The notes under the pieces: generated by a model
What the model saw: the letters and a program-made list of their open reading frames with translations, nothing else
What the model was told of the DNA's origin: nothing
Databases searched by the model: none
Assembly: GCA_037178675.1 (NCBI GenBank)
Contig: JAYMGJ010000215.1
Coordinates: 27,971-91,970, forward strand
Direction of reading: 5' to 3'
Source: Scleroderma bovista
Lineage: Eukaryota > Basidiomycota > Agaricomycetes > Boletales > Sclerodermataceae
Length of the DNA: 64,000 nucleotides
Position numbers and translations under genes: made by a program
Shown here: positions 4,272 through 29,108 of the stretch, one piece after another
Layout: each line of letters begins with the position of its first letter
Numbering within the stretch: the stretch's first letter is position 1

Positions 4272-4663
4272 CGCAGACACTTGAGGGTCAAGAGACAAGT
4301 CCGTTGCTCGGTGATAGTAGCCCTCAATTACGTCCAAATGCGTACGGCGTTGTCATGGACGGACATGCACCTGGGCAGTGGCTGGTAGCACACTCGCCTA
4401 CTCCTACCCAATGTGTCACGGTCTCCCTCGTATGATGGCAGTCTGAAAGGCTTCAGCGGACGCAGAGAAAGGAGAGAAAATTTTGACGAGTTCGTGTACT
4501 AATTCCTACTTGTACTAGTCCCCAATAGGAAATCAGTACAAAGTGTGGCAACGTTGCCCTTTTCGGGTCCTATCAAACCACCTCTCGGTCAAATTTACCG
4601 CTCATTCTTGCAACTCGTTCTCTTCCCTACCGTTCCTTTGTCTCCCTTCGCACGTTATTGCCC
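4272..4663. promoter_or_regulatory. Divergent promoter region between IKS1 and the DUF7137 gene
   Basis: About 390 bases separate the two divergent starts. Pyrimidine-rich stretches (about 4545-4650) precede the DUF7137 start. No individual factor-binding site or TATA box could be assigned by eye; the promoter role is inferred from gene orientation only. Confidence 0.35.
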
Positions 4664-5402
4664 ATGGACGACTTGTTGGAGATGCTGGAAAAACGTCAAA
4701 ACAATGGAAATCAAGGAGGTGGCGGGCAGGCAGGTGGTGGACAGCAGGCATCCACTCAGACGGGTTCGCAGACGGGCTCACAGACAGGGACAACAAGCTC
4801 CAATGCTATGCCCACGATACCTCAAAGTGCCCCAGCTGGTCTTATTACGATCACTCAACCACCGCAGCAGTCAACTTCGTATTACAAGATTGCTCCAAGT
4901 CAGTTCATCACCTTCGGTTGGAACTTCAGCTACATTTTAGCAACTCCAACCCATCTTACGGTGTCGGCCGTGTGCGAGAACGGGAATACATACCCTGTTG
5001 GTCCCACAGACGGCATAATACCTGGAACCGCTACCAGTGTCATTTGGGACCCTTACACTTACCAGACATCGCATCCCAACTTACCGCTGGCACAAGCAAA
5101 GTACAACCTAAGAATTTGGGGTGACCAGGGCCCAAACGCTCCCCGTGCGCCAGGATATCTGACTCCAAATAGTGCATTGGAATTTGCGCTATACACGCCC
5201 CAGGCATACACACCGATCAGTAGCGGTATGTGACTACTTTTGCATCTTTGACAGCCTGTTCATTCAATCTCTTCAAGGCTGGTCGTGTGGGGGTTGCTCT
5301 GGGGCAATGTCACAATACATTTCACATCCTGCCTTTGCTGGTATTGTCGCAACCCTTCTTGTCATGTTTTTGTCAGGCTCGGCACTCCTACGTCGCCTAT
5401 GA
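4664..5402 (+). CDS. DUF7137-type membrane-anchored protein
   Basis: Two exons, 4664-5225 and 5278-5402, separated by a 52-base GT-AG intron. The protein opens MDDLLEMLEKRQ, followed by a Gly/Gln/Thr-rich repeat linker (several GSQTGSQTG-like units). A beta-rich globular domain of about 120 residues comes next, containing ITITQP, FGWNFSYI, WDPYTYQ and LPLAQAKYNLRIWGDQGPN. After the intron a short Trp-Ser-Cys-Gly-Gly-Cys motif precedes one C-terminal hydrophobic segment (AGIVATLLVMFLSGSALL) and the stop. This order (linker, DUF7137 domain, single C-terminal transmembrane helix) matches a fungal family of unknown function likely sited in the secretory pathway. A classical signal peptide is not visible from this ATG, so a short upstream exon may be missing. 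Divergently transcribed from the kinase. Confidence 0.7.
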
Positions 5403-7682: not shown

Positions 7683-8705
7683 ATGCGTCAGTCCGTCGAC
7701 GATAGCAAGCACGCCCCAGACCTTCCCTTGGGGGATTTGACACAAAGTCCCTCAATGTTACCCCCTAAACATCATCGCTCCGCTAAATTGATTTGGTCAA
7801 TGTCTGGTTCTGTGTTCTCGATGGTGGAATCCGCTGCCATATCGTCGCGTTCCCCATCATCTACACCTCGCAACGAGGCAATTAGGTTCTCATCGAAGAC
7901 ACCGCTGCCTCGGCCGTCAAAGCCACCTAATAATGCTGACATCACATCTTCCATTCAGCGCACCAGTGGCAGAAGTTCGAACCAGAGGGCGCCCTCACCA
8001 GTCCCCTTATTCCCCATTAACGAATCAATTATACCTCCTGCGCAGCCACCGATTCATCTCAAGCTACCCCCAAGACATAGGCGTAGCTCCTCTGTTCCCT
8101 TTGAACAGATGGCCAACTTGCGTCCTCACACTGCACACGGAACGTCCCCTACGGCGAAGTGTTCCAAGGTCGAAATACTTTCTCCAAATCCAAATCCGAA
8201 GGTGCTTAAGCGACCCACATCTTCAAGTGGGGGCATACGGGCTCGCACTTTCTATAATACACCCCAATCCTCTCCGGGGCGATTACCAAGTGGCCACAGA
8301 GCCCCTGTCTCACAAGAATCATCCGAGTCATCGTCATCACCCACCTCCCCGGGCTTCAGGTCAGCCTGGACATGGACACCCCCCGATAGTTGGTCAGGGC
8401 CTCCCACCAGCGGGGAAACCCCAAGCAAGGAGCTTAGAAGAAGCAACAGCAAGTCGGAAGTGAAGGCCGGAAACCAATTAATTCCGCGTTTTGCCATATT
8501 GTCGCCGTCATTCTGGAAACTTTCGTCCTTGGTTCGTGGAGCCCAAGGTGATGCAAGGAGATATTATGTGAATGAGGTGCCACGAAAGGAGCAAGACCGT
8601 CAGGGCGTCCTTGTGACCGTGCAAGGGCGAGATGGGATGACAGAGAATGCTGCTGTGATTGATGTCATTCCTCAGTTGAGGACGCTGAAAAGCATGACAC
8701 CTTGA
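7683..8705 (+). CDS. Ser/Pro-rich low-complexity protein, unknown function
   Basis: A single uninterrupted frame of about 340 codons from the first ATG (MRQSVDDSKHAP) to a TGA at 8703-8705. Composition is dominated by Ser, Pro, Arg and Thr, with repeated basic-Ser patches (RHRRSSSVPFEQM, SSPTSPGF, RRSNSKSE) that look like phosphorylation-prone disordered sequence. The only ordered-looking part is the C-terminal ~80 residues: IPRFAILSPSFWKLSSLVRG, an Arg-Tyr-Tyr-Val motif and a terminal VIDVIPQLRTLKSM. No enzyme motif, transmembrane segment or zinc pattern is visible. Such proteins are common orphans in basidiomycetes. The unbroken length and coding-like composition support a real gene; the function is unknown. 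Its stop is followed by ~1.7 kb of gene-poor DNA. Confidence 0.6.
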   Translation: MRQSVDDSKHAPDLPLGDLTQSPSMLPPKHHRSAKLIWSMSGSVFSMVESAAISSRSPSSTPRNEAIRFSSKTPLPRPSKPPNNADITSSIQRTSGRSSNQRAPSPVPLFPINESIIPPAQPPIHLKLPPRHRRSSSVPFEQMANLRPHTAHGTSPTAKCSKVEILSPNPNPKVLKRPTSSSGGIRARTFYNTPQSSPGRLPSGHRAPVSQESSESSSSPTSPGFRSAWTWTPPDSWSGPPTSGETPSKELRRSNSKSEVKAGNQLIPRFAILSPSFWKLSSLVRGAQGDARRYYVNEVPRKEQDRQGVLVTVQGRDGMTENAAVIDVIPQLRTLKSMTP

Positions 8706-10444
8706 AGAGTCGTGTATGTGATCACGGTGGAATAGAGCGGACAGTTGTGGGTGCAGAGATCAGCCGAAGGTTAGTATTGTTTCGCAAATCTTGCTCTCTA
8801 GGTTGTGTACGTATCATTCTCCATCCAATATCTGTATTATAACAATCACGCCATCGCATTCACATTATTTGAATCTGGTCCATTTGCACCTGACGAATTT
8901 GTATTGTCTATGCGAAATAGAATTGTTGGACACTTTAGAATCGATCATTGACAATAAACTTGGTCGGCTTTGGTTACACACCGATATGTAGCAGGACAGA
9001 TAATGTTTTAGGTGACTTACAAGTCACGTTATGGACCACCGACTATATCTGGAGGCATCCTGTATTAGTTCGGTGCAGCAACGCGGTACAAAAGCATCGC
9101 AGAGCACGAGATAATTACATAAAACCAACTGCGGGTGGCTCGATTACTTCGAGTGTCGCACCCAGGTCACCCAATTATACATTTGGAAAACACTGGATAG
9201 CACTGGTGACTTACAAGATACATACAGACAATCGCAAAACGTGGAGGATAATCAATTACCACCACTGAGCGGGCACGCAGCATACGATGTCGCTTATCAT
9301 GTATTGTTAATGACGAGCTGCACATGCATCAAAAGTTGAGGAATTCGAAATCATTGCATTACTCCTTCGTAGAGGTTGATGATCTCTACCTTGAAGCCAA
9401 CTTGTCGGAGGTTGGCGGTTAAACACCGCGACGTTGCATTACATAATTCATGTGGATTTGTTCACGGTGCTCGAGTCACTTGCAAAGCCTTGCGGAGCCA
9501 AATTCGTGAACATCGTTCAGCCTACTATCTTTCTACAGCACCGAACACTGCTCTTACAGGAAAATCGCACATCAGGAACAAGGTAGAATGTAATGGTGGA
9601 CCCACATCATGGTACAAATTGGGACAGCGACTTCGCGTCTGGGTGACGCGGAGTATTGGAATTCAGGCTTTTGCAGTCCGCGGAATCACCATCTTCGGAC
9701 CACTGCCGATCCTCGACATAATCATTCTATCAAGAATATTGGCTTTGAGCCTTGGTGAGTTACTTAAATCGCACCCTTCGGCTTCACTGCCTTTTGTTGT
9801 TCTGAAAATGGTAAGCCTTGTACTAAGGCGTGCACTGGTGAGGACCAGTGGTGATGATGCATCTGCCTCAGCGAGTTCGAGCTTGATGAGACACTCCTTG
9901 CTCATTGCCGCTACTATACTATGCGCCTACACCTCGTCGCCACACTAATACACGTATCTCGCTCCCCGACCGACTTCCCGCCGCAGCTTTTGAGCACGTA
10001 TAGCTATGCCGTCAAAGCAGTGGTAGTGCTTCGGCCTTCGTACGTTACCACTTTGCTCCGTCCGTCCCTCACGACTCAAGGGGGCCATCGTCCTGGATGG
10101 AATATTCCATGCGTCGCCTGTCACGGTGCGCTTCGCGACTCGTATACTGCATTATGTTTTAATACCCGCCATGTCTGCGCATTTCACACAGCCTCCGGCC
10201 TCGGAATTTCAGTCTGGTGACTGCTGCGATGTGATTGGAGGATGATGCTACCAAATTGGTGGCGGTTGTACGTCTTAGGGGTTGTCAAAGCGTACCCACT
10301 GCAGCAGTGGCGCGCTTGGTTTAAATGATTTAAATCACCAGTGCAAGTCCTTCGTAGCGCATCGCCAGCCGTATCTTCCCGCCGAACGTCAGTACATCTG
10401 TCTTAGCGGCAAGCAGTTGCTAACGCCTTAGTTTTAAGCCTCCA
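8706..10444. other. Gene-poor stretch
   Basis: No gene could be supported. A 190-codon open frame (9376-9948, +) lacks recognisable motifs and its composition is not protein-like; the opposite strand is also partly open. AT-rich patches occur around 8850-9000. The final ~200 bases precede the ATG of the next gene and presumably contain its promoter. Confidence 0.4.
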
Positions 10445-12068
10445 ATGGATCCTGGATGGCCCCATTTTACTGGGAACAGCAATCTCCCTCCCTTCGACTC
10501 CTCCAGTGAACCAGGTCCCAGTCAGCCTCGCTCTCGCTCTCGGACCGAACAGTGGATTGGCGATCAAAATGTAGGGTACCCGTATAATTTTCCCCATCAA
10601 CAGCCTGGCCAAGGCGATCTCCACATGCAGCCGGTAGGAGAGATGGTAAGAGGTTATGACCAACTTGTTCTGGATGAGCCTTTGAACCCCTTCGTTCACG
10701 CAGAGCACCGGCTTCGTACAGCCTCTTCACAGCGATGTTTCCTTTCAGCATATGGGATACCCGTTATACCCCCCCTCAGAAAGGGCCGATATCCCAAGTT
10801 ATCCGGTCCGCATTTCTTGCTTTCTTTGCACTTCATGTTGGAACTTACATTCGCCCATCAGACAGATAACCTGTTTTACCATTATTCCCCACCACATGTC
10901 CCCACCATCACTAACCCGGGTTCCCAATTGGGTTACCAGGGTGCCAATATACCCCAGTTTCACATTAACCCAGCCGGGTTTTTTGGTGAAACGGTTCAAG
11001 GCAGTCGCTCCAGTGCACAACTTCCTGCGGTTCCTTCATATCACCCTCCCCAAGTTCCAACCTTCGGTACGGGATTCAGGGAAGGAGATGCCACTACAAG
11101 TCAAATTGCCCAGCCACTGCGGAGCGACATCCCATTTCTGGATCCTCTGTATGGCCTTGGGCCCGTAAGATATGATTCTCCTTACAATAGGCCTATGGAG
11201 GCTTCAATGGATATTCAGGGTGCAGGCCCTTCCTCAACTGCAGGGAACATGTCACGGTTTTCTCCTGAGCGAGCGGATGCTACAGTGCTCTATGGAGATT
11301 CCACGGTTCGTGCTCCATTTGCGCATCGGTAGAGACAAGTATAATTGTTTGACAGGGGGAGGTCATATTTCCCCGAAATGACCCTATTTTCCGTGCTGAG
11401 GGTGGTCCTTCTGCACCTTCCTTTACTGAAGGTACTTCTCCCTTACCGGCACGTGTCGCTAGCGACACCAGAAACGTCCTCGGTCGGGGTCCTCAAGTCC
11501 CACAAGAACAATATGCCATTATGGCAACCAAAAGTTATTTCAGCCGAAATGATCCTATTACTTTTAATCTCAAGAATTCGAATGTTCAGGGTATTCCGAT
11601 TATGGATGCTTTGGAAGGCGAAGGTTGTCACCTTGTGGGTGCCAAGGATTCCATCAATAATTTAGACAAGACCTCCACAAGTTTACGCATTCTGGTATGT
11701 TTCATCGACTACCGCATGCATACATTTATTGATGTAGCATAAACAGTGGCCTGGTTATCATTCGTGGTCAAAGACATTCCCGACGAAAACGTGGAAAAAG
11801 CCGCGTACCCTCCTTACTCGTGCACTTCTCGCAAAAAGGGTGGCGGTACTAATTAAGAAATTTTACGACGAGGTTAGTCGTGTAATATTCTCTTGAACCT
11901 CATTTGATTTTGTTGCAGAGGTGTAACGATCGTGTCGATGGATCAAACAGGGAGTGGAAGATTGGCCCTGATGGAATCCAGCTCGATGACGTCGTCCTTG
12001 TTTCACTTTGTCACGTCTCTCAAGGAAGTTGGCAACCTGTTCTGTGCCTCAAAAACCCTCGTCCTTAA
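10445..12068 (+). CDS. Agaricomycete orphan protein with conserved Trp-rich C-terminal domain
   Basis: Six exons give a continuous 453-codon frame: 10445-10645, 10704-10805, 10862-11305, 11356-11694, 11747-11872 and 11919-12068. All introns are 46-58 bases and GT-AG. The N-terminal two thirds are disordered and rich in Pro, Gln, Ser and Tyr (MDPGWPHFTGNSNLPPFDSS; later many Pro-Tyr and Pro-His pairs). The C-terminal ~100 residues are ordered: WPGYHSWSKTFPTKTW, a basic helix LLTRALLAKRVAVLIKKFYD, then WKIGPDGIQLDDVVLVSL and SQGSWQPVL near the end. I recall this W-P-G-Y ... S-x-G-S-W-Q-P arrangement as a recurrent C-terminal module of uncharacterised mushroom proteins. The basic helix and acidic/disordered N-terminus would suit a nuclear or DNA-associated role, but that is inference. 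The frame only closes with these introns, which supports the model. Confidence 0.65.
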
Positions 12069-12645
12069 GCCTCTCGATCGCATTACCACAAGTCAGGACC
12101 CTATAATTCGTTCGCACGTGCACTGGCTGCACCCATTACCCATAGGATCGCAGACCCTGCGCTCTCCGTCGCATTTTTTATTGATCATAAATGTATTCAT
12201 TCATCTTCATCGGTAATCCACATCCCAGATCGACGCCTATTCTCATACATCAACTCACTTTGTAGCGCCAGCTGTATTCCCTTCGTTCGCCCGAGCCAAT
12301 GATTTCGGCTCCAAGACATTGTTCGCATTTATAAATACCATTTTCTCGACTACCTACCACATCTTTATCGAATACCGTAAATCTGAATTTACCTTGTGAT
12401 CAAAGGTTCTGCTGATCGGAAGCTGATCGGAAGTTCGAGACTCCGATCATTCCATCCGGAAGCCGGTCGCACTATCACTTTTCCTAAATCTTTCCGTGGT
12501 TAAAACTCTTCTGTCGTGGCATCTCTCGGTCCCATATTCAGACCACTCTTAGTCGAATTCCCTTAAGCAATTTGCACACATTCTTTTACTGATACGGTGG
12601 ATAGCATATAATCGTTCAGGCTAAAGTTAACGTTTACCCACATTC
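12069..12645. promoter_or_regulatory. Intergenic region upstream of QTRT2
   Basis: About 580 bases between the orphan's stop and the QTRT2 start. It contains short repeated strings such as the doubled AAGCTGATCGGAAG/GAAGCTGATCGGAAGTTCG near 12415-12440 and is otherwise unremarkable. A promoter role is inferred from position only. Confidence 0.35.
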
Positions 12646-14594
12646 ATGGAGACGTTTTCTCAGCCAGAGAGTCAATCAAGAGTCGCAGGCCCCAATCATG
12701 TCCCTACGCTATCCTTCAATCACACCGCATCGTGTCCCAAGTTTGGTCCGCGATTTGGGCAGATCACCCTTAGTCGACCAACGACTGTGCAAGACAGTGG
12801 CACCCCTTCGTTTGACGCGTCTCCTATCACGATTGATACTCCAAACATACTTGTCGGCACTTCACGCGGTGTGGTCCCTCATCTCTCGCGTGATCATTGT
12901 AATTCTGCGGGGGCTATTAAATGGATCAACGTGCCTTTCGAGTCTTTGTGAGTTTTATGTTCATAAGGACCACTTTTCCTACTATGTTTAAACCACTCAG
13001 TTTGGAGCAGTCACCCCCAATCCCAATGTTACAGTCTGGGGCAAACCCGCTGCATACTTTTTTGGGTTTTGACACACGGAAGCATATCGTGTCACTTTGC
13101 CTTCGCGATCCGATGGATACGCGTGAGATGCCACCAAATGGGAACACTCATATCTCTGCGAACTGTGTACGAGGTGTCAGAAAGGTTGGTCAACTATTGT
13201 CCTTGCAATCTTGTGTGTATTACATCTACTCAAGTCAATAGGTGACTCCTGCTGATTGGAGGAATTATGTATACAAATTGCAGCCCGACGTTGTCTTTGC
13301 CCTCAGTGATACGCCCTTTACTGCGCCACCGCACTCGCAGAAACGCGTGACAAAGAGCATAGATCGTAATGCGGCGTGGCTCGCGGATTTGCTTCGACCT
13401 CTTGATGGCCATGATTCATCACCGGATTCAGAACGACTCTCCCAGCATTCACTCAACGTATTTGTCAATATGGCTGGGGGTACGTCTGTCCCCGCTCGGG
13501 AGGCGTTTGCACATAGCCTTTCGGAGACCCTGTTTGGACCTGAGCTCCAGGCCGTTAGTCCCCTCAAGCACCTCGATGACGGTGTAGCTGGTTACTCGTT
13601 TGATCTCGCGGCGTTACGAGGCACGGTACTGCAGCCTCTAGCACCACACCGCCGAACCCCGCCTGCCAGCTTCCTGGAGCAAGAAGTTCCGGCTATGATA
13701 CAGGACACCAAAGCGCTGGCGGAACTGCCAACGCCAGGGAGTAACATGTTTCAGAACTCATTTCCTGTTCCATCGAGGTTCTCTGTACCGTCCGTGCCGC
13801 CGGATGTAGTGCCACTGCTCCAGGCATCTCTTAAGGGACTTCAAGCGAGAAAACCGAGACTTGTTACTGCTGCACGCTCTCCACATGAAATTCTTAAACT
13901 AATTCGTGATGTCGGCGTGGACATTTTCGATTCGGAGTTGGCGATCTCTGCTGCTAATGTTGGTGTGGCATTAGATTTTGTGTTTCCTTTGCCTCCCACC
14001 GAGAATGAAGTAGTGAAGGGAGCGGAGAAGAAGGAAGTGGGACATAACTTGTATGATCCAGTCTACGTGCACCAGTTTGGAAGGCTGTCGGACTGTTTGG
14101 CCGGAGCTGCAGAGTCTCATCTATCTTCCCCTCTCATAGTGTGCCCTTGCATCGCGTGCTCGCCTCGCTCTCCAGCTTCGTACGTCCTTCACAGCAATGT
14201 TGACGTAGAGTCATCTGTGGAGAATGGTCGGAGTGAGAAGGAGTTGTACAGGCCGCCGCACAGCCGTGCGTACCTGCATCACTTGTTGCGTACTCACGAA
14301 ATGTCAGCACACACACTTCTCGTGGCGCACAATCTCGCTGTTCTGGACATATTCCTTGCCGGGGTGAGGGGTGTTCTTGTCGATGGAAATCGAGAAGAAG
14401 AGGGCGAAGGCGAGGATAAGATTGCCCGGTTTGCACTGGAGGTTAATAGGTTTGAGCGTGCATACGATGAGAATATGGGAGTAATCTCTGCCGCGAGGAA
14501 AGACTGGGGCGATGTTGACATAGCGAGGGGAAAGGGCAGGTTGGCTCGAGAGAGGGAGAAGCAGGCGTTCGCTGAAGCAGAGGCCCGGGGTTGA
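12646..14594 (+). CDS. QTRT2: Queuine tRNA-ribosyltransferase accessory subunit 2
   Basis: Three exons (12646-12947, 13001-13184, 13242-14594) give a 612-residue protein in one frame. It belongs to the tRNA-guanine transglycosylase family and most resembles the non-catalytic eukaryotic partner QTRT2, which pairs with QTRT1 to exchange guanine-34 for queuine in GUN-anticodon tRNAs, reportedly at the mitochondrial surface. Supporting blocks: NILVGTSRGVVPHLSRD near the N-terminus, LQPDVVFALSDTPF with HSQKR (barrel region), DGVAGYSFDLAALRG, and the zinc signature C-P-C-I-A-C followed by LLVAHNLAVLDIFLAGVR, giving the Cys-x-Cys-x-x-Cys...His set of the family. The C-terminus is charged (LAREREKQAFAEAEARG). 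Inserts of Ser/Pro-rich sequence make it longer than animal QTRT2. No catalytic QTRT1 is in the window. Fungi generally salvage rather than synthesise queuine. Confidence 0.88.
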
Positions 14595-14749
14595 CCAGTC
14601 TTCAGGGGTTGCTATATACAAAAAAGGAAATCTTACTCACATGCGACTCTTCTCTATTGTCGACGACGATGATTTCCTCGCTCTTCTTTCCAGGGCCTTG
14701 TGTATCATCTACAATAAGAATACAGAATGAACCATGTTTCACGGCTAAC

Positions 14750-15680
14750 ATGGCTTGGATGAGATGTCGACCATTCTCGTGGAGCTCGTCTAGGCAGGCG
14801 ATACAGCAAGACCACTACGCAGCACTCTCCGTGCCCAGGACTGCCACGAAAGCGCAGATAAAGGTGTCGCAACGCTTCATATGATGTCTGTTCGGTTCAT
14901 CAATTGACGCTTGTGTTTCAAGTCGAATTTCTACCACGTAGGTTCTGACACCAAGTCGGTTCGAGCTCCACGCTGACTATGTGAGCAGCTGAGCAAAAGA
15001 TACCACCCAGACGTGGCAAAAGACGCTGATTCACGAAGTAAATTCCATGCTGTAAGTGAGGCATACACTGTGCTCGGAAACGATCGAAAACGGTACGTTT
15101 TGCGACGCTGGGTGCTTTCAATAGTACGCGAATCTGACTTGCAGATTTACCTCTACGTAGGCGGGAATACGATCGAAGTTTAGGTCACTCCTCCTTTGGG
15201 ACCGTTGGCACGCACCCACAAGCAACAACGACCCGACCATCGCATCAGCGTGGTTCGCGGAATTTCTGGGCGCATCAACAGCATTCACGATCCAGGTTCC
15301 AGGCGGGGCAAGGCCACCATCCATCGTCTGCAGCACAACACCCGCATACGCCTGCGCAGCGTCATAACACCAATAATCCATTCCAGAATCCATATGTACA
15401 GCGCGCCACTGGATGGCGGAGTACAGATTCGGGTGGGTCAGCATCTGGCGCTACTTCGCATGCTCGTGGTGACGCTAGAAGTTGGCCGTCACAAGACTCA
15501 GTTGATGCCAGTGGAAGCAATGGGTTGTATGGAGCGCATGTAAAAACGGAGAAATCGCGAGGAAGCGACGCTCCTGTGACTCAGAACTATATTAGGGCGA
15601 CGGATGTGCTTGCGAGAGTTGGGGGTCTTGCAATGCTGTGTTCCTTCGCCATGTATGTTGCCGGCGTACTAAGCCGATAA
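14750..15680 (+). CDS. J-domain (DnaJ-like) co-chaperone with C-terminal membrane anchor
   Basis: Exons 14750-14863, 14923-14937, 14989-15092 and 15161-15680 give 250 residues in frame. The N-terminus (MAWMRCRPFSWSSSRQ) is short, basic and Ser-rich, like a mitochondrial presequence. The J-domain follows at once: DHYAALSVPRTATKAQIK, then a Tyr-containing segment encoded by a 15-base exon, then LSKRYHPDVAKD with the HPD motif that stimulates Hsp70 ATPase. VSEAYTVLGNDRKRREYDRS closes helix 4. The middle is a Gln/His/Ser/Asn-rich linker. The C-terminus has one hydrophobic segment, LARVGGLAMLCSFAMYVAGVL, three residues before the stop, so it is probably tail-anchored. An alternative upstream ATG at 14667 is in frame. 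The likely site is mitochondrion or ER surface; the Hsp70 partner is unknown. Confidence 0.8.
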
Positions 15681-16296
15681 CTCTTGTAGATTCCTTTAAC
15701 CTACATGCACCAGATACTACGAGTTGCTAATAGTTGGATAACTGTGTAATTGAATCTACGGTACTCTAGTGGCAGGGAACGACAAGTACTGTTGCACCAT
15801 ATGCTCCTAATAAAGGACTATGGGTTCGAGCTGAAAACTGGAATATTGGCGTTGGTCTCGTACTGAGTGTATCGGAGGCGTGATTTTCGGAAACGGTCGA
15901 GGTTATCATTAAAACTTAATGAGAAATTTGTGCGGTGGCACTGGGTCTCTCTGCTGAAGACGGTCACACCAACGGCCTGTTGTGCCACGGGATCTGAGCA
16001 CTGGCGCCCGTGACTCGACAAGACGCTGTCAAGGATGGCACGACGGTCGAGGAAACTGGAACCGAGGCAAGTTGTTCCTTGCTCTTCGCATGCCTTTGAT
16101 CAGGGACGTCGAGTCAAGTGGCGGTGAGGCCTGAAGCTTGAAGGTCCGTCATTTCTGGAGTCGCCGGCGTTTACCTAGGCTCGATTGAGGTGGCATTAAC
16201 CACTAGCGGTCATACCAGAACTGTGGTAAGTACTAACTTAGGAGCTTTCCGACACTAGACGCGTCTGCTGACTCTGCTATTTCTTGACTGAGTACA
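15681..16296. other. Intergenic upstream of the HET gene
   Basis: No coding potential with recognisable motifs was seen on either strand. The region separates the J-protein stop from the HET-gene ATG at 16297. Confidence 0.4.
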
Positions 16297-18891
16297 ATGC
16301 GCCTTATCAGCGTGAAAGCTGTTCTTGATATCCAAGGGAGTGTGGACGTTGACTCTGAAATCGAGGTCTTGGTTGAGCTCAACGAGAATTCGCCATATGC
16401 CATACTGTCTCATTGCTGGGGTGCACCCAAGGAAGAGGCGCAGTTCAAGGAGATGGAGGGCCTCGCACGCATGGACGCAGCTACGAGAGGGAAGATCCTC
16501 CAGCGCAGTGGCTATCAGAAAATCCTCGGGAGCTGCATCCAGGCTCGCAAGGATCAGCTTGACTGGCTGTGGGTCGATTCCTGCTGTATCAACAAAGAGA
16601 GCAGTTCCGAGCTATCTAAAGCAATCAACTCAATGTTTCGGTGGTACAACAAGTCAGAACGATGCTATGCGTACCTCCACGACGTCGACGACTCTACTTT
16701 TCCCGTTGAACACAACAAAGGCCGATTCAACGAGTTCAACGGTCATCCAAAGTGGTTCTCACGTGGCTGGACTTTGCAAGAGCTCGTTGCACCCAATATC
16801 GTCCACTTTTTTAACCAGAAGTGGGAGTTCATCGGTGATAAAGAGAGCCTTGCGACTGCTCTGCAGGATATCACGCTCATTCCCACCGATATCTTGAGCA
16901 ATTCATCTGCTGGGATGTCGTTTCTGAGGGTGTCCATAAATTCGCCAGGTTCCATTTTGACGACATTGTAACAATCTCGAAAGCAGCTCGGATGGTCTGC
17001 TAGAAGGCTGTTGGACCATCCATTTCTCCATGTGTGGCCCCAGGCAAATATGCTCTGGTCGTTGGACCTGCGAATGATTTCCTCCTGCAGACGGCGAAAC
17101 GCGTTCTTCCCTTCCCCGTACAGCATCGGCATGTGAACACCTAGGAGCCCCAACAACGAGTATGCTTGGTCCTCTTCTCGCGTCGTCTTCCGGTCTGCAG
17201 CCCATGACATGATTTGTGCAACGCTGGGACGCTTCGAGGATATTCCATCTGCCAGGATATCAGACAAGCGGCTCCGCACGTTTAGCGTCACCAATGCTGG
17301 CATAGAAATATGGCTACCTCTCGCACGTTGTAGTGGCTCCGCGTCCCTCTTCAGAGCCAAGCTGGCGTGTCGTTCAGAAAGCTGGACCCCGGTGACCATT
17401 TTCCTGGTGTGCGTTGAATCCAACTATTCCCGATATTTTGGTCAATTTGAAACATTTTATCGTGCAAAGTTCCATTTTCAGCGGGTCTTTCTTCCCTACC
17501 CTGATGACGCAGACCACGGCAATTTCACGTTCGAAATGGACGTGAGAACACTGTCTTCTGATGGTTTCTCGCAGTACTGTGTCTATCCGGACGATTTGGA
17601 GTTTTCAGACGATTCCATGACCTTGTCGAATATCAATGATTGTGCCGTCATCGTCTACAACCACATCCAAAGTCACACTGGCTTCGCAGTTGCACTTCAT
17701 TACTGTTTTGGTCAACATCTGGTAAACGTTTCCTATTACGAAACTTCGGAGAAGTGGCGAGAGTATGCTCAGGAAGTACATCAACTCGGGCGAAAGGAAT
17801 GCCTGGAAGACATCCTCCATGGAATTAAAGCACGGCAACGTGCGGGTATTAAACACATCCATCAGCCAGGATCCATTCGTGGTGTTAGGCTGACTTATGG
17901 AGGACTGTCAGGATCACGGAATCGCTGCACAGTTACAATCGACGTTACCAAGTGCGTGGGTTGTTGCAGACCAAATTGGCAAGGATTGGATGATGTTAGT
18001 ATCTTTTCTGCACAAATGCCTGAATCTGACTGCCCGGGCCACGCCCTCAAAGTTTGATGCGGGTCCGCTTACCCTTGGGCTTATGAGGGATGCTATTCCT
18101 TTGTTCCCCATGTGCCCAGTGTATAAGCTGCTCGTGGGTTCATCATGTACACGGCTTTTACTCGCCGATACTGACGTGGAAATGAAGGTGAGCGAGTGCA
18201 TTTGTTTGGGGTTTAGGCTAACGAAAGATAGCTGGGCGACTATGGCTCCTTTCAAGAAAACGGAAGCTTCGAACGTGAAGGCAACATTTTCGACCTGGTT
18301 ACCACGCTTGGAATACGCACAGGGTCATTTAACCCTGTTGAGCATGAGATCCGCCATGCAGATGGTGGAACGCTGGAGAACGGCTGTGTGAAGTCAGTCG
18401 CATATGACTGGGGATTTTGCCGTCTTCTATTTCTTCGAAATCCCACCGGCTTGTCTATTCCAGACAACCAACATATCATCTCCTTGCTGAAAAGCCTATC
18501 TATTCATCTTCCTGACAAAGCTCTAGTGACGGCTGTCGTAAAGTGTTCAGAGTGCGATTCTAAAGAAGACCACCGAGGTACCGTTGTGACATCATGGCTG
18601 CAATATGCTGGGAACAGTAATCCATGGAAATATCTGTCGTTTTCAATTCCTGGTTTAGAGTCCGCACATGACCCTCCTGGTTCTTGGAAAAAGCTTCCTA
18701 CTACTACTCCGTTGTACACCATAAAGACACCCCTAATTTGGCTTCAAGAGACTGCAGATAGGGATACGAGGACACAGTTCAAGGAAATCAGGTAAGTTCG
18801 CCGACTTCGTCGACTGCTCGCAAACGCGGATATTAGGTGTGCTAATACCACACTCGCGACTTGGGGTGTAGGGATAACTTTCATGCAATAG
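16297..18891 (+). pseudogene. HET-domain (incompatibility-type) gene disrupted by an internal inversion
   Basis: HET-domain proteins trigger fungal non-self recognition and cell death. The ATG at 16297 opens a typical HET module: YAILSHCWGAPKEEA, then WLWVDSCCINKESS, FRWYNKSERCYAYLHDV and WFSRGWTLQELVAPN, then ITLIPTDI. Right there the plus strand leaves the family pattern and stops at 16971. The next family block (MSWAADRKTTREEDQAYSLL, MPMLYGEGKNAF, SIFAWGH) lies on the minus strand between 17261 and 16888. Beyond 17261 the plus strand resumes with DKRLRTFSVTNAGIEIWLPL and runs to 18057. Later blocks (LGDYGSFQENGSFEREGN near 18231; GLSIPDNQHIISLLKSL near 18450) follow after one or more introns, and a short last exon may end at 18891. 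As it stands the transcript would encode a truncated protein of 224 residues. C-terminal exon borders are approximate. Confidence 0.8.
16888..17261. other. 374-base inverted segment bounded by GATATC palindromes
   Basis: Both ends are the six-base palindrome GATATC (16888-16893 and 17256-17261). The minus strand is open through the whole segment and encodes the part of the HET region missing from the plus strand. By coordinate arithmetic, the flanking plus-strand frames on both sides and the inverted frame fall into one and the same reading frame if the segment is flipped; that frame has no stop from 16297 to 18057 (586 codons). Because the ends are palindromes, flipping would leave no scar. 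This is direct sequence evidence of inversion; whether it is biological, allelic or an assembly artefact cannot be told here. Confidence 0.85.
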
Positions 18892-19110
18892 TCGACTGGG
18901 TACGTTCTCTCTTGATCATGTGGCCAATATTCGACCTGTAGATGGAATTTACAGGTGGGGGAACCAGACAGCCCGAGCAGGGAGATGAAAGCCTGGGCTG
19001 CCATGGCTTTCTTAATGGACATATTTGGTGGATGGCACTTAACTGCATTTGTGGGCATTATCATCCTTTCATGACATCTACTAGTGCTTCACATTTTTGA
19101 AATTTGTCAG

Positions 19111-19586
19111 ATTGGCCGTTTGGATTTCTTCGACGAACTACCCTCAATTGTGGCTACTGGATTCGGAGGACAGCACACTGTCCCGACTATTCTTCCTCCT
19201 GCCACGTACGAAGAAAAGAGGCAAAGGGTACTTCGGTGTGTCCAGTTGATCAAAGCGACCCTCGACGATGAAGAGTGGTATTCAACGTTCGCGTCAAAGC
19301 TCAAATCTAAAGTCTTTGGTGCGGAGGTAAGTTTACTCTCTTGTTTTTTACCCGAGAACGACCGTTTACGGTGAAACAGTTACTTCGCATCACCGGTGTT
19401 ACATTCATGGAGTCACAGGGTATATCTCGAAATCTACGAGACCCCTTCTCTCGCATCAGGTCCAGTGTGAAAAAGAATGATAGTGGGGAAGGTGATGAAA
19501 ACAGGTTTGACTCGTCTCCCCAACCCATTTACGATGCATTAAGTCCAAACGGAGGCGACACATGCAGTTGCTCGTACACGAAGTAA
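19111..19586 (+). CDS. Unidentified two-exon coding remnant or 3' part of a gene
   Basis: Two open blocks join in frame across a 53-base GT-AG intron: 19111-19326 and 19380-19586. The first reads IGRLDFFDELPSIVATGFGG..., then a charged helix YEEKRQRVLRCVQLIKATLD and WYSTFASKLKSKVFGAE. The second reads LLRITGVTFMESQG, RDPFSRIRSSVKKN and an acidic/Ser tail. The frame before 19111 opens at a good 3' splice site, so 5' exons should exist; a small open stretch with MKAWAAMAFLMDIFGGWHL near 18986 might be one. I do not recognise the family. It could be a small separate gene or extra exons of the HET gene. Coding-like composition and the clean splice are the only support. Confidence 0.35.
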
Positions 19587-20727
19587 AGGCCCTTCGAAAC
19601 AGGCTAGGCGGTGTAACTGACAGTAATGAACTACGAGCCTTAGAGGAAGACGTCACGGGCAAGGTGACTAATGTCAACAGTCCCATCATTAGATCCTCGA
19701 ATCACGTACCCCAAAGATTACACTAATATGCTGGTGCGGTGTCCGATTTGAAGTCAAGCAGCTGCTCAGAAAGGCATGTGAATTGTCCTTCATTTTCCTG
19801 ATTTGTTGCTAATATCAATCAGTTTATTGATCGCATCGTAAATGACATGGAAGTGAGCGTTAAAGTGCGGATGACTCGGTCACATGTAAGTTAGTCTGGT
19901 GTCCCAGAACCAAAGGGGTGACTGTCCTACCACCACCAGCTTTTGCGAAGCATCGGTATGTTCCTCCTGAGTGTCGCCAACGAGCGATTGGACGACGACC
20001 AGCGTCCGTTGGTACGGTGCGTCATGGTATCGAATGTACGGCAGTAACATAGACACTGAGTACGTTTGTTTTGGTTGTAGCATAACATTAGATGCAGAGG
20101 CAGGGATCTCGAAGTACCAATTATTCCTCGCTGCGCGGTCTGTACGCATTGCCCAGATAGGTGATAACCAAACTTTCACGGAGGAGGAGCAGTCCTAGAA
20201 TCATAAATTCGATACATGTGGCCATGTTGGTTGTATGCATGTTACGATATCGTATTCGTTGTCAATTCCCCACTAGTCTGGGGTTTATTGTTTCTAAAGC
20301 GAGATCTGTGGAGCATACCTGAACAATATGTGGATAAGCATGCATGAATCGCATGGCTGCCTCTCGCGAGTTGGGATGCAAGTTCTGAGATGGAAGTGGG
20401 TGTCTGGAAGGAGCGCAGAATCGAAGAGACGTCTCACGAACGCTCTGGTGTCGGCGGTTTCACCAGGACGTCGTCCTTTGTCCTGGATTCAGACCCGGGC
20501 TGTCTGCAGTGATCCAAGCATGAGACAAGATATCCACGTATCAGAACTAAACCCAACTCGTCGGCGACCAGAAGAAGCCGATGTATTTACTACCGGCGAT
20601 GAATGAGAACTAGTAGCCTTTCGCAGGACAACCATGCACAATCACATGCCAGTTCAACTTCATATGATGCCCACTCTGGCAGAGGCCCTTGATTCTCCAT
20701 TTCGTATCTGTCCAGCTTGTCAGACAG
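19587..20727. other. Intergenic upstream of the ABC transporter
   Basis: No supportable gene. Short open frames on both strands (for example 20328-20606) lack motifs. The last few hundred bases presumably include the promoter of the ABC gene. Confidence 0.4.
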
Positions 20728-23618
20728 ATGGCAAGCTCTTCGAAGTTGATGTGCAACGGCGCCCAAGTCCGCTCTGACATCTCACGACGGCTCGAACAGC
20801 TTCTCCGTAACCCATCGACCCGCCGCTCGTTGCTACTCCTCCTCACATCTGTCCTCGTCGTTCGTGGGGCTGTACTTCCTCCATATCGTTGTGGCAAGTC
20901 CTTACAAAAGGCGAAGTCAAGTAGGAAGGAGAAAGTGACCGCCTCATCTTTGCAAAAGCGAGATCGAGAACAGCATTCCTCTGATGCACAGTTCTTTCCT
21001 CTCAACCCATCACACTCATCAGCAACGCCAAACGGACATTTTCCAGTGCACTCCAGATCGAAAGGTGTACCAAGTACATTCATCTACCAGCTCCGCTCGC
21101 TTCTACGCATCGTCATACCCTCCCTTCGATCGAAAGAGGTCTTTCTCCTCGCCGCACATTCTTACTTCCTCATCCTTCGTACCGTACTCAGTGTTGCTGT
21201 TGCGAGATTAGATGGGAAGATCGTTAAGGATCTTGTCAGCGCGGACGGGCATGGGTTTATCAGGGGTCTGGGTCTGTGGTTCGCGCTTGCAATACCGAGC
21301 GTATATACGAATTCCATGGTACGTCCATGACATGTATATATACTACAAAATCTAATCCATATCGACATGCTCGTACCCTTTGCTTTGCGTAGATCCGACA
21401 TCTCCAATCAAAGCTCGCACTGAGGTTCCGCACCCGTTTGACGGAGTATATTCATGACCTATACCTTTCGCCACATCCACACTTGAGGTATTACCGCGTC
21501 CCACTTCATGGCGTCGACCAATACATTACGGCCGACGTCGAGGCGTGGTCGGAGAGTGTTGCTGGAATATAGTATGTCATCCGTGCAACTGTAAAGGTCA
21601 TTGATATCGATTCATCTACAGCGGAAATTTGATGAAGCCATCACTCGACCTTCTTTTGTTCACGTCTCAGCTTGCGACGGAACTTGGCTTCAGGGGGACC
21701 GTGCTGCTCTTCGTAAACTACTACCTTACAATCAAGGTATGTCGCCCTTTCTAATACACGTGCGTACGATGTATCATGGTTTCAGATTCTTAGCGCGGTC
21801 ACCCCGGCGTTTGGTCAGCTTTCTGCTGTCGAGGCTCGTCTCGAGGGTGAGTACCGCGCTGGCGTGAACAGGGTAGGTAGGGAGAGCGAAGAAGTCGCGT
21901 AAGCTTGAAATCCTACCTTACTTTCCTCCAATGCTAACTATTGCGTAGATTCTACGATGGCGGCGCGCGAGAACGCGATATCCTCACCCGCGTCTATCTT
22001 CGTCTCATCCGTCACGTAAATTCGATTTACAAAATCCGCATCGCGTACGAATGGACAGAGGACTTTGTCATTAAATATCTCTGGTCAGCGGCTGGGTACG
22101 GTCTCATCGCGGTCCCTCTACTCTTTACGCGCAAACGGCGGATTGAGGATAAAGCAGGGTCGAGTTCGAATAGGGACGGGGTTATTGCGGATCGCACAGA
22201 GAGTACGTGGTCTCTTTCCCCCACGGTGGTTGTGATATCTCACCGGGGTTGTGCGATACAGCATATATTTCAAACAGGCGGCTTCTGATTTCCCTCGCAG
22301 ATGCAGGGGGACGGCTTATGTACGCATACAAGGACTTGGTGGAGGTCGCTGGCCTCACTGGACGGTAGGCATCTAGCATGCTGCAGTGTATTGTACATTA
22401 ATGACCATGTTGCTCAGATTGTACACCCTTATGTCTACGCTACACCACCTACCTCGACTTCCTTCTGCGCTTCCCGGTGATGGTAACACTTTTGAGGTCA
22501 AAAACGCCGATGTCTGTATTCCCACTACAGCCTTACTCGTGTCTGAATCGCACAAAACTCTCACCGATGACACGTATGAGAACGGGGTGATTCCGGATTC
22601 ACACGGCAGTTCTTCCACCCTTGTTCGCGCCCTGAGCGTGAAGCTGTGCCCCGGCATGCATCTAATGATCACGGGATCGAACGGCGTTGGGAAGACTGCC
22701 ATTGCGCGCGTGCTCGCTGGTCTGTGGGCACCAAGCGGGCCTCTTGCTTCTGTCACACGCCCGTCATCAGATATCGCGGGTGACAATGGCACAGGCCATA
22801 GGCCGAGACCTGGCGTGTTCGTCGTTCCGCAGCGAGCATATATGGTTGCGGGATCATTGCTGGAGCAGGTGATCTATCCCCAGTCATTAGGGATATTTTA
22901 TGCGGAAGGCGGCGACGTTACTGAGTTGCAAATGATATTGGACGCTGCACATCTAGGATACTTGGTTGAGCGAGAAGGGGGATGGGAAACGGTGAAAGAG
23001 TGGAGGGACGTGTTGAGTGGGGGAGAGAAACAGAGGGTGAGTATTGGATCACGAGCGTACACTGTGTATGTACTGATCTGCGATGTACAGATGGCGCTAG
23101 CACGCGTGTTTTATCACCGACCCAAATTTGCGATCTTGGATGGTAGGTTGTTGTTTTTACACGTCTTGAGAAGATCGTGTCATCTGACTGTGCGATCTGC
23201 ATGTCCAAATAGAGTGCACGAGTGCGGTATCTAGTGATGTGGAGGGTCAGATGTACGAACACGCCAAGTCGCTCGGTATATCCTTAATTACTATCTCACT
23301 GCGGTAAAGTGTCCATCCTGACACGAATCTGGGACAAGTGCCGCTGACATTTTCTATCCCAGACCATCACTGACAAAGTACCACACACATCTCCTCACAC
23401 TAACTGGCGATGGCTCGGGAAGCTGGACGTTGACGTCTATTCTGAACAGCTCGTCTGCATCCACACCTACAAACGGAGTCGGGCGTGAAGAAGTGGGATC
23501 ACCAGTTGATGGTGACAAGGAAATGGAGCGTGTGTTGGAAGAGATAAAGACACTAGAAAAGAAGTTGGAGGAAGCGAAGAGGTGGGAAAGTCGACTGGAA
23601 GAATTGAAGAAGCAATGA
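20728..23618 (+). CDS. PXA2: Peroxisomal ABCD-family half-transporter (long-chain acyl-CoA importer)
   Basis: ABC half-transporter of subfamily D; yeast Pxa1/Pxa2 and human ALDP import long-chain acyl-CoA into peroxisomes as dimers. From the ATG at 20728 there is an N-terminal basic stretch with a hydrophobic segment ([16 protein letters not shown]), then the ABCD transmembrane region with [20 protein letters not shown], and, after an intron at 21319-21392, [20 protein letters not shown] with the tyrosine-rich [12 protein letters not shown]. The EAA-like region is [18 protein letters not shown]. The nucleotide-binding domain has Walker [19 protein letters not shown], a Q-loop region [20 protein letters not shown], the signature LSGGEKQR, and Walker B FAILDE with [11 protein letters not shown] split by an intron at about 23142-23211. 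A coiled-coil tail ends the protein ([16 protein letters not shown]). All catalytic motifs are present. PXA1 versus PXA2 is not certain. Confidence 0.85.
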
Positions 23619-24078
23619 TTTTACAGGTGTACGGGTGGAATGGCAGGCCGAGCTGACAGTAATTATTTCAATATCCACCTTCGCATTACAATCGGTATTT
23701 CAGTAATAACTACTTTCCCTTAGAGAATGTAGAATTGGTGAGAGCTTAATTATTCTTTAAATCTCTGGTAGAAGGTATAGGGAGAAACATCCACGTATTG
23801 CTAGTTGGTATCAGGCAAGTATGAATCTGGTACCGTCACAAGAAGTACGGGGGGCCAGTGGTCATCAGTGTAGACATTGAATAGTTCGCGATTGTTGTGT
23901 TGATGGGTATGACAACGACATATGTACATTCCATCATACCAGCCTTTTCATTTCTATGTACATGATTGGCGTAGTCTTTTTGAGTACGCCCCTGGCCTAC
24001 CTGTAGGTATATTTCTTGTCACACTTCGCAGCATTATTTCCACCCAGGCCATCCCTTTCGTGCCGCACACGAACGCAC
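23619..24078. other. Intergenic, convergent 3' ends
   Basis: Between the ABC transporter (+) and MATE copy 1 (-), both ending here. No gene or repeat recognised; AT-rich around 23660-23780, consistent with 3' untranslated regions. Confidence 0.4.
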
Positions 24079-26484
24079 CTAATGCGACTCGTCGGCTGGC
24101 TTACCCCCAGCCCTCTCTCTCGCCTTGGTAGCTTCAACCTCCCAATCAGCTCGCACGATCCCGATCCACACCGAGAGTATAGAAGAATACATCAGCGCAA
24201 CCATGAGCCCAATCCAAAGCCCAGCGAGTTGGAAGTCAAAGTGGAATGCAAGAAGAATACCGATCGGGATGCCAAGGATATAATATGCACTGCTCGGGGG
24301 AGAGAAAGACCAAGCACCGAGAGACGGTACCGGCAGGCGCGGTGAGGAATTGGAGTGAGAATACCAAAACATTAATCAGCCTCGGTCCTGTCAGCGACAA
24401 TTAACCTACCTCAAATTCAACCATGCACCTATCACTTGCATACCTCTCGCTCTGAGGACTCCACCGCCAACATTGTTGGTCCCGTCGAAAACCTGGTACA
24501 CAGCGGTAATAGGTAGGACAGACGCTACAATGGAGACAACCTCAGGGTCGTTATTGAACAGGTATGCCCATTTTGTGCGGAATACGAGAAACATGGTGCT
24601 GGATTCAATCACCGCGGCAGAGAAGACCGAAATGAGGAAGGAAATGATTTTAGAAGGCGAGACCATGTAAGAGGGAAGAATTAATCACGCAAAACATACC
24701 TCCAAATACATCCCACAGCTACGGCAATAGCCATCGAAGCATGGGTAACGATCCCAGCCCGACGAGCTTTACCCTCTCCAAGAAGATTTCCGACCCTATT
24801 TTTGCATCGTAAGTGTGGAAATAGACCGGGGAGCTTGGAATAGGAACCAAACAAAGAAACAACTCACCGGACAGATGTAGCCGCACCCAACGCAAACGGT
24901 GCCTGAAAGGTGAACGATGCAGATAAGAGGAGTACCGACTGCGCTGCAAGTGAAACTGGACCGAGACTAGAAAAAAAAACTCAATTAATACGATTTCGCC
25001 TGACCGCGTACCATATCATGCATGAACTAATGGATGCTTACAAGCTGGCAGCCACTAGAAGCTTGTCAGCTTCGCCATAGGTTGTCGAAGACTGCCACTT
25101 ACATCCAATCAATTCCCATGACCACCATGCCGATGCAGTCTGAACTGACATATTATTCAGAACAGATAGCATTCCTAGAGCGAATCTATCAATACAAGCG
25201 GGACTCACCAATTCCTGCTATGCCCAATCGGGCAAGTAAACCCCACCTTTGCCACACACCGCGTCCGATTGGGGTCCAGGCCGTACGCGGGACAAAGTAA
25301 TAAGCGTATAGGATAGATGCAAGCAACACAAGGTTGAGGGAGAGTGAGGTCGCGATCGGTGCTCCTCGGAAGGAGAGTCCCAATGGATACACTGTTACCA
25401 TGTACCATAAGACAAATGTCAATTTTCAGTAACATGAGTTCTTCTGGAGAAGGGGTCAATAGCGCACCAAAGTACCAATTGAGGAAAGCATTGAGGGGTG
25501 CAATAACTACAGTGATTCTTGCCGGGACATCAAAGAGCCCTTGGCAGTGGAAGTACCGCCTGCCGACAGGTACATGTAATTATGGAGCAATGAAGCTATA
25601 GCAAAGAGCGTGCCTGGAGATACCGATAATGCTATACGCCGGAAGGCCCAATGATGCATATTTGAGGTAGACAGCGGCGAGATGGGCCACCTCGGGGTCC
25701 TGCTTGAGGAAGAGGAAAATAGGTTCGGCATTGAACCATATGGCAAGGATGGGCTTTGGGGACGGTTAATTCGGTGTGTGTTGGATGCATGAAAGAAACT
25801 GTGACTCACAAGGAGGCCAAATGGGGTCATGAGGGCTATAATTATTAAGGCCAGGTAAGATGGAAGCAGGGAACATAAGGCTTACCCACTCTCTGCGTCC
25901 AAAGACCGACCATGTGTGGAGAGTCAGATGTCCATGCCGGAGGCAAGAGGGTGTCGAGAACGGAAGCGAAGCCTCGCACGATGCTATACCCTGTGACGGA
26001 GGCGGTCATCATGCCAAGCGTCGCAGCAGCAAGGGCAACGGTGGACAGATGCCCTATGCATATAACGGTCACGAGGAGAAAGGAATGTTCGAAGATTTGT
26101 GCGCTGTGATAGGAGGAGTGAGTAAGATATCAATATATGTGAGGAAACGTACGCAAAAACGGGGATGGAATAACCTATAAGGATACGCAATTCTTGGTGG
26201 AACATCTGAGTTGATGGTATCTGTTCGCTAGAACGCGCAAGGCCGCCACTGTCGTCGATGGTTTCGTGGACGAGGGGGGCGGGAGCGTCGGGAGCGTCCG
26301 ACTGGAGGAGTGGAGTGTGCTCTGAGATATGTAACATGCTATCTCTGGGATGGCAGGAATCACCCTTGTTGTTGGTGACGCCGGGAACGACAGAGTCGGT
26401 ACGATGACGATCATACTCATGAGAGTGGGACGGGAAGCTACCACTCTGAGGGACCGACTGCGACGTCGACAGCTGGTTCGGCAT
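24079..26484 (-). CDS. MATE-family multidrug/toxin extrusion transporter, copy 1
   Basis: The start is the ATG at 26484 ([15 protein letters not shown]), matching the other two copies. A hydrophilic N-terminal tail with the conserved [10 protein letters not shown] string precedes the first MatE repeat, [17 protein letters not shown]. After an intron come [40 protein letters not shown] and [20 protein letters not shown]. Further exons carry the remaining helices: a Pro-rich region near 25400-25200 ([20 protein letters not shown]), [20 protein letters not shown] near 24580, and the last helix pair ending [20 protein letters not shown]. This is about 12 transmembrane helices and at least 9 short introns. 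MATE carriers export organic cations or metabolites in exchange for H+ or Na+; yeast Erc1 is a family example. One of three close paralogs here, oriented opposite to the other two, and adjacent to the GS-like ligase. The substrate is unknown. Confidence 0.85.
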
Positions 26485-27314
26485 GGCGAAGTGGATCACG
26501 GTAGAGATGAAGAACCTGTGGCGATTTTGGTCAATGCAATTTGAAGCAGCCAAGTTAGCCTATCCGACTCGGCAAGCTGTGCGACCATCATGTTGCCACT
26601 GATCGTACTAATGATACCAAGGTATGTCCGTCTGTCATCACACTGCATTGAACACCTGTTTTCTTGTATCAGTTATGTAGCTCGGACACAACGGAAATAA
26701 TGGGTTCTCAGTAAACGGTGTCGGAAAAAGATTGAACTTCGGGCCCGATCTGCAAACGAAGTCCCCTGTTTGGATTAGCTAGGTTCAACTTGTTCAACCA
26801 GGTTATTTGTCACGTGAAGCAGTTGAGCAACGATCGATCATTTCACTTCAAGTGCATGTAAGATTATTAGCATGATGGTATGTGGATTCTTTGACCCCAT
26901 GTAGGACTAGCAATTCTAGGCCTTCTGCGATAAATCCCTGCGTTAATAATCCAATTACATACACAATAACTGATCCAATGTTCACTAGCATCTCGGTATC
27001 AAGGAAATACTCATTCTCACTTGTCAATTTCATGTAAGTTGATTCCGAAAGCCCCTCTTCCCCCTGGATATGTATTCGCATTGTACTGACATAGTTCGCG
27101 CCGTGCGACATTCCGACACTAGTACCAGTGCTTGTGGGACGGTGACTCTTCGCAAACACGTACAATTTGGACTGGTAAAAATATCTGCTTACATAGGGGG
27201 CTCTATTTGTGTGGAGGAGCCTGCAAGATAGTCCTAGTACATTCAAAAATATATCAATATACTCCTACAAGCGCAAAATGGACAATGTCATAGTAAGAGC
27301 CTAAGGTGCACGTA
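26485..27314. other. Intergenic between MATE copy 1 and the GS-like gene
   Basis: About 830 bases, 5' of MATE copy 1 and 3' of the ligase (both minus strand). A 132-codon minus frame (26848-27246) has no ATG start and no recognised motif. No gene is called. Confidence 0.4.
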
Positions 27315-29108
27315 TCAATATGTCTCTACAAGCCGAGCGATAGTCACAGCTTCCTCCTCATCCTCCGGTTGCATAAATCTCTCCAGCGTCTACAAAACGA
27401 TCGCGACTCAGCCCAGTGAACGACCAACAACCATCGGTCAGTGGCTCACCTTGTTCACAACAACAAACTTCTTCACTACATCTTCCCCGATAAACTCCCC
27501 AATCTTATGGTCCTCTAACAAACACCTCCTCGCACTCTCCACATTCAACGGAAGTTGCTTCGTAATCCCTTTCTCAGCCCGCTCTGCCTCACTCATCTTA
27601 GCCGCCGCCAGCTCCCCACAACGCTCCATCTCTAACGCAAGCCTATCCCTGATCCCAATAATACCAGCACTCAGTAGACCTGAGAGCACAAAATATGGGT
27701 TCGCAGTACCATCAACCGACCTGACTTCAAGGTTGCGCGAGTGCGGTGAACTAGGGTTCGCGAGCCGCACAGGCGCTTCCCGGTGGTCGATACCCCAGCA
27801 GACCCATGTCCCGCCAGACCAGATGCCGTCCTGCATTCGCGCATAGGACTGGGGGAGTGGGAGTGTGAATGCGATGACGGAAGAGATGTGCGTCATGAGT
27901 CCAGCTAGGAAGTGGTATTCGTGTGTTGTGAGCAAGGAGGGGTAGCTTTGTGAGGGTAGGGGGGATCCTGTGGTGGGATGTACAGAGATGTGAGTATGGG
28001 CACCGTTTCCCCCTGGAATGGTTTGAGTACCCTTATGCGTATGAGAAGAGGGATATAGTAATCACGGAGGACATACCGTCAATGTGCAGTCTGGGTGCGA
28101 GTGTCGCACGTAAGCCGTGTTTTCTCGCGATATTGTAAATTGTCTCTCGTGTGTGCACCAGTGCATCGGCTGCCTCGAGGGGGGAAAGAGGGCCTGTGAC
28201 AACCTCGTACTGCACGGGCAAGAGACGAGCCAGAGTCAGTAGGGCATCGTCCGAAGTGAGCGTGTAACTACAAAACTCGGAGAGAACCAACCTGCCCAGG
28301 GGCTGATTCAGAATGGAACATCTGAAGCTCAATGCCAGATTTGTCAAGTGCTTCTGCGATCTCCTCGAGTATAGTGAGCTCTATTGTACCCGTTCCGAGT
28401 GCGGCGGGACTGCACCACACATGATTGTTCACGGTATCGATGGGGTTGGTCGATTTGAGGAGTATGAACTCTGTCTCGAAGCCGACGAGGAATTGTATGT
28501 TGAGTTCCTGCTCTGCATATCTATCCGTATTACATCATCAGCACACATACTGGCTGACACAATGCACCACTCTAAGTACTTCAAGATCCGCTTTAAGTTT
28601 GTCCTAGGACACAGGGGTACATCAAGCCGTCCCCCAATAGACGCCTTCTCCTCGAAAAACCCAAACACAGACGCATGTCCGGGTGTATACCCACACAGCC
28701 TGAGGCTTGAGAGATCCACTGCCACGAGGTATTCTCCCTCTGCGGAGAACCCCTCTGCCAGCCTCGTGAGAACGAAGCCAAACATGGCTTTGGGGACAGT
28801 GACGCCAGGACGGGATGATTCGAGGAGTTTGTTGAAGTGGGAGACGGTCAGTATCTGACAGCCCCCCTGATTGCAAAAATCGACCCAATAGACACGAACG
28901 AACTTGACGCCAAGATCTTCGAGTTGGCGGGATTTCTTGCGGAGAGTACCTGTGCAGACAGTCGAAGGGGTGTACTTGACTCCGAAATCGATGGTGGACA
29001 CGGCTGCTGCCGCGGTGGGTGGAACAATGGAACCGTTGAGCTAGTAGTGGTTGTATCAATTCGGTGGTCGAATTGCTATGAAACACTTACATGCAGTGTA
29101 TCGATCAT
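27315..29108 (-). CDS. Glutamine-synthetase-like ligase (FluG C-terminal type)
   Basis: Fungal protein of the glutamine synthetase fold, closest in style to the C-terminal half of FluG. GS-fold enzymes make an amide between the gamma-carboxyl of glutamate and ammonia or an amine, using ATP. The first exon is only six codons (29091-29108, MIDTLH), joined across a 50-base intron to 29040. Blocks in order: FVRVYWVDFCNQGGCQIL, VPKAMFGFVLTRLAEGFSA, LVAVDLSSLRL, then FETEFILLKSTNP, the metal-site motif FHSESAPGQYEVVTGPLSPL, TRETIYNIARKHGLRATLAP, a HxHxS loop, the nucleotide-site loop PQSYARMQDGIWSGGTWVCW, then EAPVRLANP and NLEVRSVDGTANPYFVLSGL. The last exon, 27389-27315, encodes TLERFMQPEDEEEAVTIARL and the stop. 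Catalytic blocks are intact. True ammonia-fixing GS is less likely than an amine ligase. A decayed copy lies at 44.5-46.3 kb. Confidence 0.85.

Follow-up and report, generated by a model that had tools for sequence, protein, structure and literature searches.

A predicted HET-domain gene of Scleroderma bovista is broken by a 374-bp inversion in the 64,000-nucleotide stretch of DNA analysed here (hereafter, the window), and the locus is present once more in the same assembly, there with the segment in the opposite orientation. We favour, with moderate confidence, an explanation in which the segment was flipped once, by polymerase template switching between short and imperfect inverted repeats, in one of two HET copies that are likely to be allelic.

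Results

The inversion and the gene it interrupts

Searching the genome from which the window comes (51.8 Mb, 850 contigs) at the DNA level, we found the HET locus a second time, on contig C601 (10,674 bp). Relative to this copy, the 374-bp stretch 16888-17261 is reversed in place in the window: 370 of its 374 bases are identical in the opposite orientation, and the flanks are common to both copies (Table 1). The initial annotation, made from the letters of the window, had described an exact in-place inversion with both ends at GATATC sites and had placed the missing middle of the HET gene on the minus strand. Both statements are confirmed independently by C601, which carries the same 374 bases in family orientation between the shared flanks. 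The three frames that it described as free of stops are indeed open (left, 16288-16971, plus strand; segment, 16743-17423, minus strand; right, 17137-18057, plus strand) and, when the segment is read from the opposite strand, they add up by simple arithmetic to the single 586-codon frame that had been proposed. The claim of two bounding palindromes survives in part: GATATC is indeed found at both junctions of the window, but the two probably did not exist beforehand as a pair, as the right-hand site of C601 reads GATGTC. Because of this difference we rejected, in its original form, the idea that recombination acted on two palindromes already in place.

Table 1. Positions of the HET locus features in window coordinates
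Feature	Position	Strand	Remarks
Match to C601	13358..18886		Collinear, apart from small gaps, the 374-bp segment and 1,990 bp inserted in C601
TATT, empty insertion site	15844..15847		In C601, a 1,990-bp repeat element with TATT on either flank
ORF of the inverted copy	16297..16971	(+)	224 residues; PF06985 at residues 34-134
Two bases of an AAAA run	16519..16520		Kept in the window, missing in C601 (frameshift)
Inverted segment	16888..17261	(-) coding strand	Encodes the conserved middle of the predicted HET protein; opposite orientation on C601
Left junction GATATC	16888..16893		GATATC in C601 too
Right junction	17256..17261		GATATC in the window, GATGTC in C601
Later part of the HET gene frame	17257..18057	(+)	Inversion separates it from the start codon

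The reading of the window copy also bears out the truncated product announced by the initial annotation: residues 1-200 of its open reading frame align with the database homolog P0001, and the next 24 are translated from the flipped segment before a stop is reached. The left piece of the gene matches the Pfam HET family PF06985 (E 3.4e-15; 57.1 bits, against a curated cut-off of 22.5), whereas neither the flipped segment nor the right piece had a match in Pfam. The HET match covers profile positions 1-93 in the window product, compared with 1-95 in P0001 and 1-93 and 1-97 in other intact homologs. The window copy is thus predicted to keep the HET part of the protein but neither its conserved middle nor its later part.

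The second copy is frameshifted

Over the 5.5 kb shared by the two copies, the aligned pieces are 96-99% identical, with a divergence of 0.4-1.1%; the next-best identity after C601 is 82% among the 78 matches listed (from the best 40 of 126 candidates). The 2-bp deletion of C601 shifts the reading frame within the HET part, and this copy therefore offers no working alternative state of the gene. To judge from their reading frames, both HET copies appear to be disabled by separate lesions. The C601 frameshift could possibly be a sequencing error, an explanation that is less favoured because only one of 20 gaps recorded in five contig pairs is a one-base homopolymer change. Across the coding stretch 16297-18057, eight SNPs distinguish the copies and five of these change amino acids. 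By comparison with P0001 and P0002, the derived residue is in the window in two cases and in C601 in two others, the fifth change being the codon at the right junction.

C601 also differs from the window outside the gene. The 1,990-bp insertion (C601 6199-8188) lies on the upstream side of the HET gene, at a distance of about 450 bp. It is an element whose inverted ends match each other (GGGGAATACAGAG...), and parts of it are found again elsewhere in the genome. Past window position 18886, C601 (its positions 1-3134) enters a high-copy repeat and the contig ends inside it; this repeat has at least 53 matches listed (from the best 40 of 217 candidates), in dozens of places and at 89-99% identity.

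The window order is derived

HET genes with a related middle part are abundant in this genome. The translated middle segment has at least 150 matches (the best 150 of 208 candidates) and the N-terminal HET part likewise at least 150 (the best 150 of 198 candidates). The family listed here is large, and a few of its members carry internal stops; it is comparable with that of Podospora anserina, for which 132 HET genes have been reported (PMC10890737). We examined the loci behind the first 30 of the 150 middle-segment matches, leaving out the window itself: in all 29 (C601 and 28 others, some of which are probably allelic pairs), both junction regions lie within one unbroken protein match. We also paired each middle match with an N-terminal HET match situated no more than 1.2 kb away, using position and strand. 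Among the 150 + 150 matches listed, 123 of 124 paired loci have both parts on the same strand and the window alone has them on opposite strands. One of the same-strand pairs looks misordered, in all probability through a neighbouring HET gene having been mistaken for the partner, and C601 is missing from the 124 pairs since no HET match on it is among those listed.

The same order prevails in the databases. When the segment was aligned to HET family proteins and homologs with the window order were sought, as the initial annotation had suggested, six homologs (P0001-P0006) were found to cross both junctions, all of them in family order. P0001 has 594 residues and is 94% identical over the part searched; P0003 comes from Scleroderma citrinum and P0004 from Astraeus odoratus. 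When residues 170-224 of the truncated product were used as a further database query, no record with the inverted tail emerged; P0005 and P0006, the two taken from its six candidates, are both in family order. As C601, 28 of 28 other loci, 123 of 124 pairs and six database homologs all share the opposite order, we consider the window copy to be the derived one. Compared with P0001, and judging by protein letters alone, P0005 and P0006 appear frameshifted towards either terminus, apparently at places other than in C601. They would then be further broken members of the family, which hints at repeated independent loss.

Alleles or duplicates

A search with window positions 1-16000, a region that includes a TGT-domain gene (best match P0007 at 96%; best named match Scleroderma citrinum Foug A at 90%), gave C601 as its sole match. 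The TGT matches point to a likely relative of Scleroderma, a genus of ectomycorrhizal earthballs. Four other contig pairs, picked for their similar-looking HET matches, diverge by 0.4-0.6% over 19.2 kb. Given this similar divergence, the assembly seems to place each haplotype in contigs of its own; C601 most likely represents the other haplotype, with the allele of the other nucleus. Among the options left by the initial annotation, an allele confined to one nucleus of a dikaryon is thus the one most likely to apply. In a study of two other Scleroderma genomes, separated alleles and predicted secondary haplotypes were reported for one of the two (PMC11704682).

It is very unlikely, in our estimation, that the two copies are instead recent duplicates, one of which was inverted afterwards. 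C601 is only 10.7 kb long, breaks off inside a high-copy repeat and has an inserted element absent from the window, all of which would suit a duplicate. Against this stand the upstream neighbours, including the TGT-domain gene, which both copies have on the same side, and the level of divergence, which recurs in other contig pairs of the assembly. On the other side of the locus, the first part of the 183-kb contig C239 (1-6149) matches window positions 22226-28347 at 99.2% and the match then ends; the haplotypes may differ structurally from position 28347 on, or one of the contigs may be misjoined.

Junction letters and short repeats

The right-hand difference between GATGTC in C601 and GATATC in the window amounts to a Met/Ile difference in the protein. 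The codon encodes Met in P0001, P0005 and P0006, and Ile in P0002 and several more distant paralogs, so that Met is the likelier, if not certain, state before the inversion. From the GATGTC of C601 and the Met of these three homologs, we infer that the inversion event itself probably created the second GATATC. In the ancestral form, as represented by C601, the two arms fit at five of six bases. Random pairs of junctions drawn within the HET gene (200,000 trials) fit at five or more of six bases in 2.3% of cases and at all six in 0.17%. No inverted repeat of 10 bases or more was listed at the two junctions in a repeat search, and by BLAST the arms resemble each other, imperfectly, over no more than 12-13 bases. 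GATATC itself is common in the window (33 occurrences, compared with 15.7 expected from shuffles), and four of these sites fall within the inverted HET gene. Direct repeats also occur near the ends of the segment: CAGGATATCA is present at 16864 and 17253, the second copy lying across the right junction, and TTCATCTGCTGGGAT at 16902 resembles TCCATCTGCCAGGAT at 17244. We assigned these direct repeats no role in the inversion mechanism.

Discussion

Template switching would account for the inversion as follows. During replication or break repair, a growing strand ending in GATATC would re-anneal to the opposite strand at the right-hand GATGTC, where five of six bases fit. The segment would then be copied backwards up to the GATATC of the left site, after which the nascent strand would rejoin its own template at the right site. 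Such a path would leave the letters of the left site at both ends of the segment, as observed in the window. A plain cut-and-rejoin would be expected to keep the variant at one end, and the presence of GATATC at both junctions thus fits templated copying. Template switching between non-identical short inverted repeats has been described to homogenize the arms and invert the spacer (PMC8604942), and imperfect repeats are reported to have been turned into perfect ones in this way (PMC8755829).

The signature of copying at the right site nevertheless consists of a single base, and a G/A polymorphism predating the inversion is possible, given the Ile in P0002 and in several distant paralogs. The same residues lend some plausibility to a different origin, two double-strand breaks repaired by end joining. 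The right site's change from G to A would then be an independent mutation or an older polymorphism. If both sites already read GATATC, the repeats would have been perfect, a fit that random junction pairs rarely attain. However, end joining needs an extra change at one particular base while the copies differ by about 1% or less, the change runs precisely in the direction that completes the repeat, and a plain cut-and-flip would have left the variant at one end. We regard this origin as unlikely.

The sizes involved are a further difficulty for template switching. In the yeast study, spacer inversions were seen only with arms longer than 9 bp, in a survey covering spacers up to 70 bp (PMC8604942). 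Plain template switching has also been considered hard to fit to very short or imperfect repeats, for which microhomology-mediated break-induced replication was proposed (PMC8755829).

One may also ask whether the inversion belongs to the genome at all. The blunt cutter EcoRV recognizes GATATC, and a chimera produced by digestion and religation would therefore resemble the window, whose junctions lie exactly on such sites, both reading GATATC. The true haplotype would then be uninverted, the segment having been flipped in vitro or during assembly. Several observations make such an artefact quite improbable: the flipped segment carries the bases of its own haplotype (4 differences from C601 in 374), the window contains no Ns, and a 6-base overlap would be too short for reads to be joined. 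Moreover, no inverted piece of at least 30 bases and at least 88% identity was detected in the 19.2 kb of the four other contig pairs.

The initial annotation had raised the prospect that the inversion toggles the gene between two products, one full-length and one truncated. The finding of both orientations in one assembly would be in line with a recombinase-driven, reversible switch, as would the repeated flipping of a two-base spacer in yeast SPO75 (PMC8604942). Yet the repeat is only six bases long, and the uninverted C601 copy is frameshifted. The frameshift of C601, its own SNPs and its insertion together indicate that the two orientations belong to different copies. We looked for a recombinase in 14 of the 17 ORFs of at least 160 aa that overlap positions 8000-27000 and found none, although genes split by introns would escape such a scan. 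With the other copy frameshifted and no recombinase in the scanned ORFs nearby, we rejected a switch, the probability of which we consider negligible.

What the truncated product does, if it is made, may take several forms, as it may be inert, interfering or unleashed, and loss of function is the default expectation. The HET domain spans about 220-240 residues and its overexpression is enough to induce death, according to a review (PMC12881547). Since the window product keeps the whole Pfam HET match and is close in size to this death-sufficient domain, the inversion could conceivably have created a HET-only allele, unleashed or dominant-interfering, in one nucleus of the dikaryon beside a frameshifted partner. 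We hold this to be decidedly doubtful. Most HET genes do not control incompatibility (PMC12881547; PMC10890737).

In literature listings on HET-domain genes, inversions, dikaryons and microinversions, no paper on such an inverted HET allele appeared. The locus provides a natural inversion resolved to the base, whose uninverted form is present in the assembly as well, and its two junctions make an easy marker. If our interpretation is correct, the span of a templated inversion would exceed more than tenfold that of the microinversions considered here from PMC8604942 and PMC8755829, and a gene of the self-recognition type would have been lost in two different ways in one individual. One would predict a double loss of this kind if full-length HET alleles carry a cost or can be spared.

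Like other fungal genes with a HET domain (PF06985), the window gene combines an N-terminal HET match with a long later part; any role of this locus in cell death or incompatibility is putative. As regards the inversion, the closest parallel is REG2 in yeast (PMC8604942), where, as proposed here, an imperfect inverted repeat became perfect and the spacer was inverted within a coding gene. There, however, the yeast spacers are of a few bases and the arms are longer, whereas in the window 374 bp lie between 6-bp arms and the reading frame is destroyed. The published human-chimpanzee microinversions (PMC8755829) measure 17-33 nt, in contrast to the 374 bp of the window, where both forms are present in one genome and a gene is broken. 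Mutations of this kind are known; the size of the present one is unusual.
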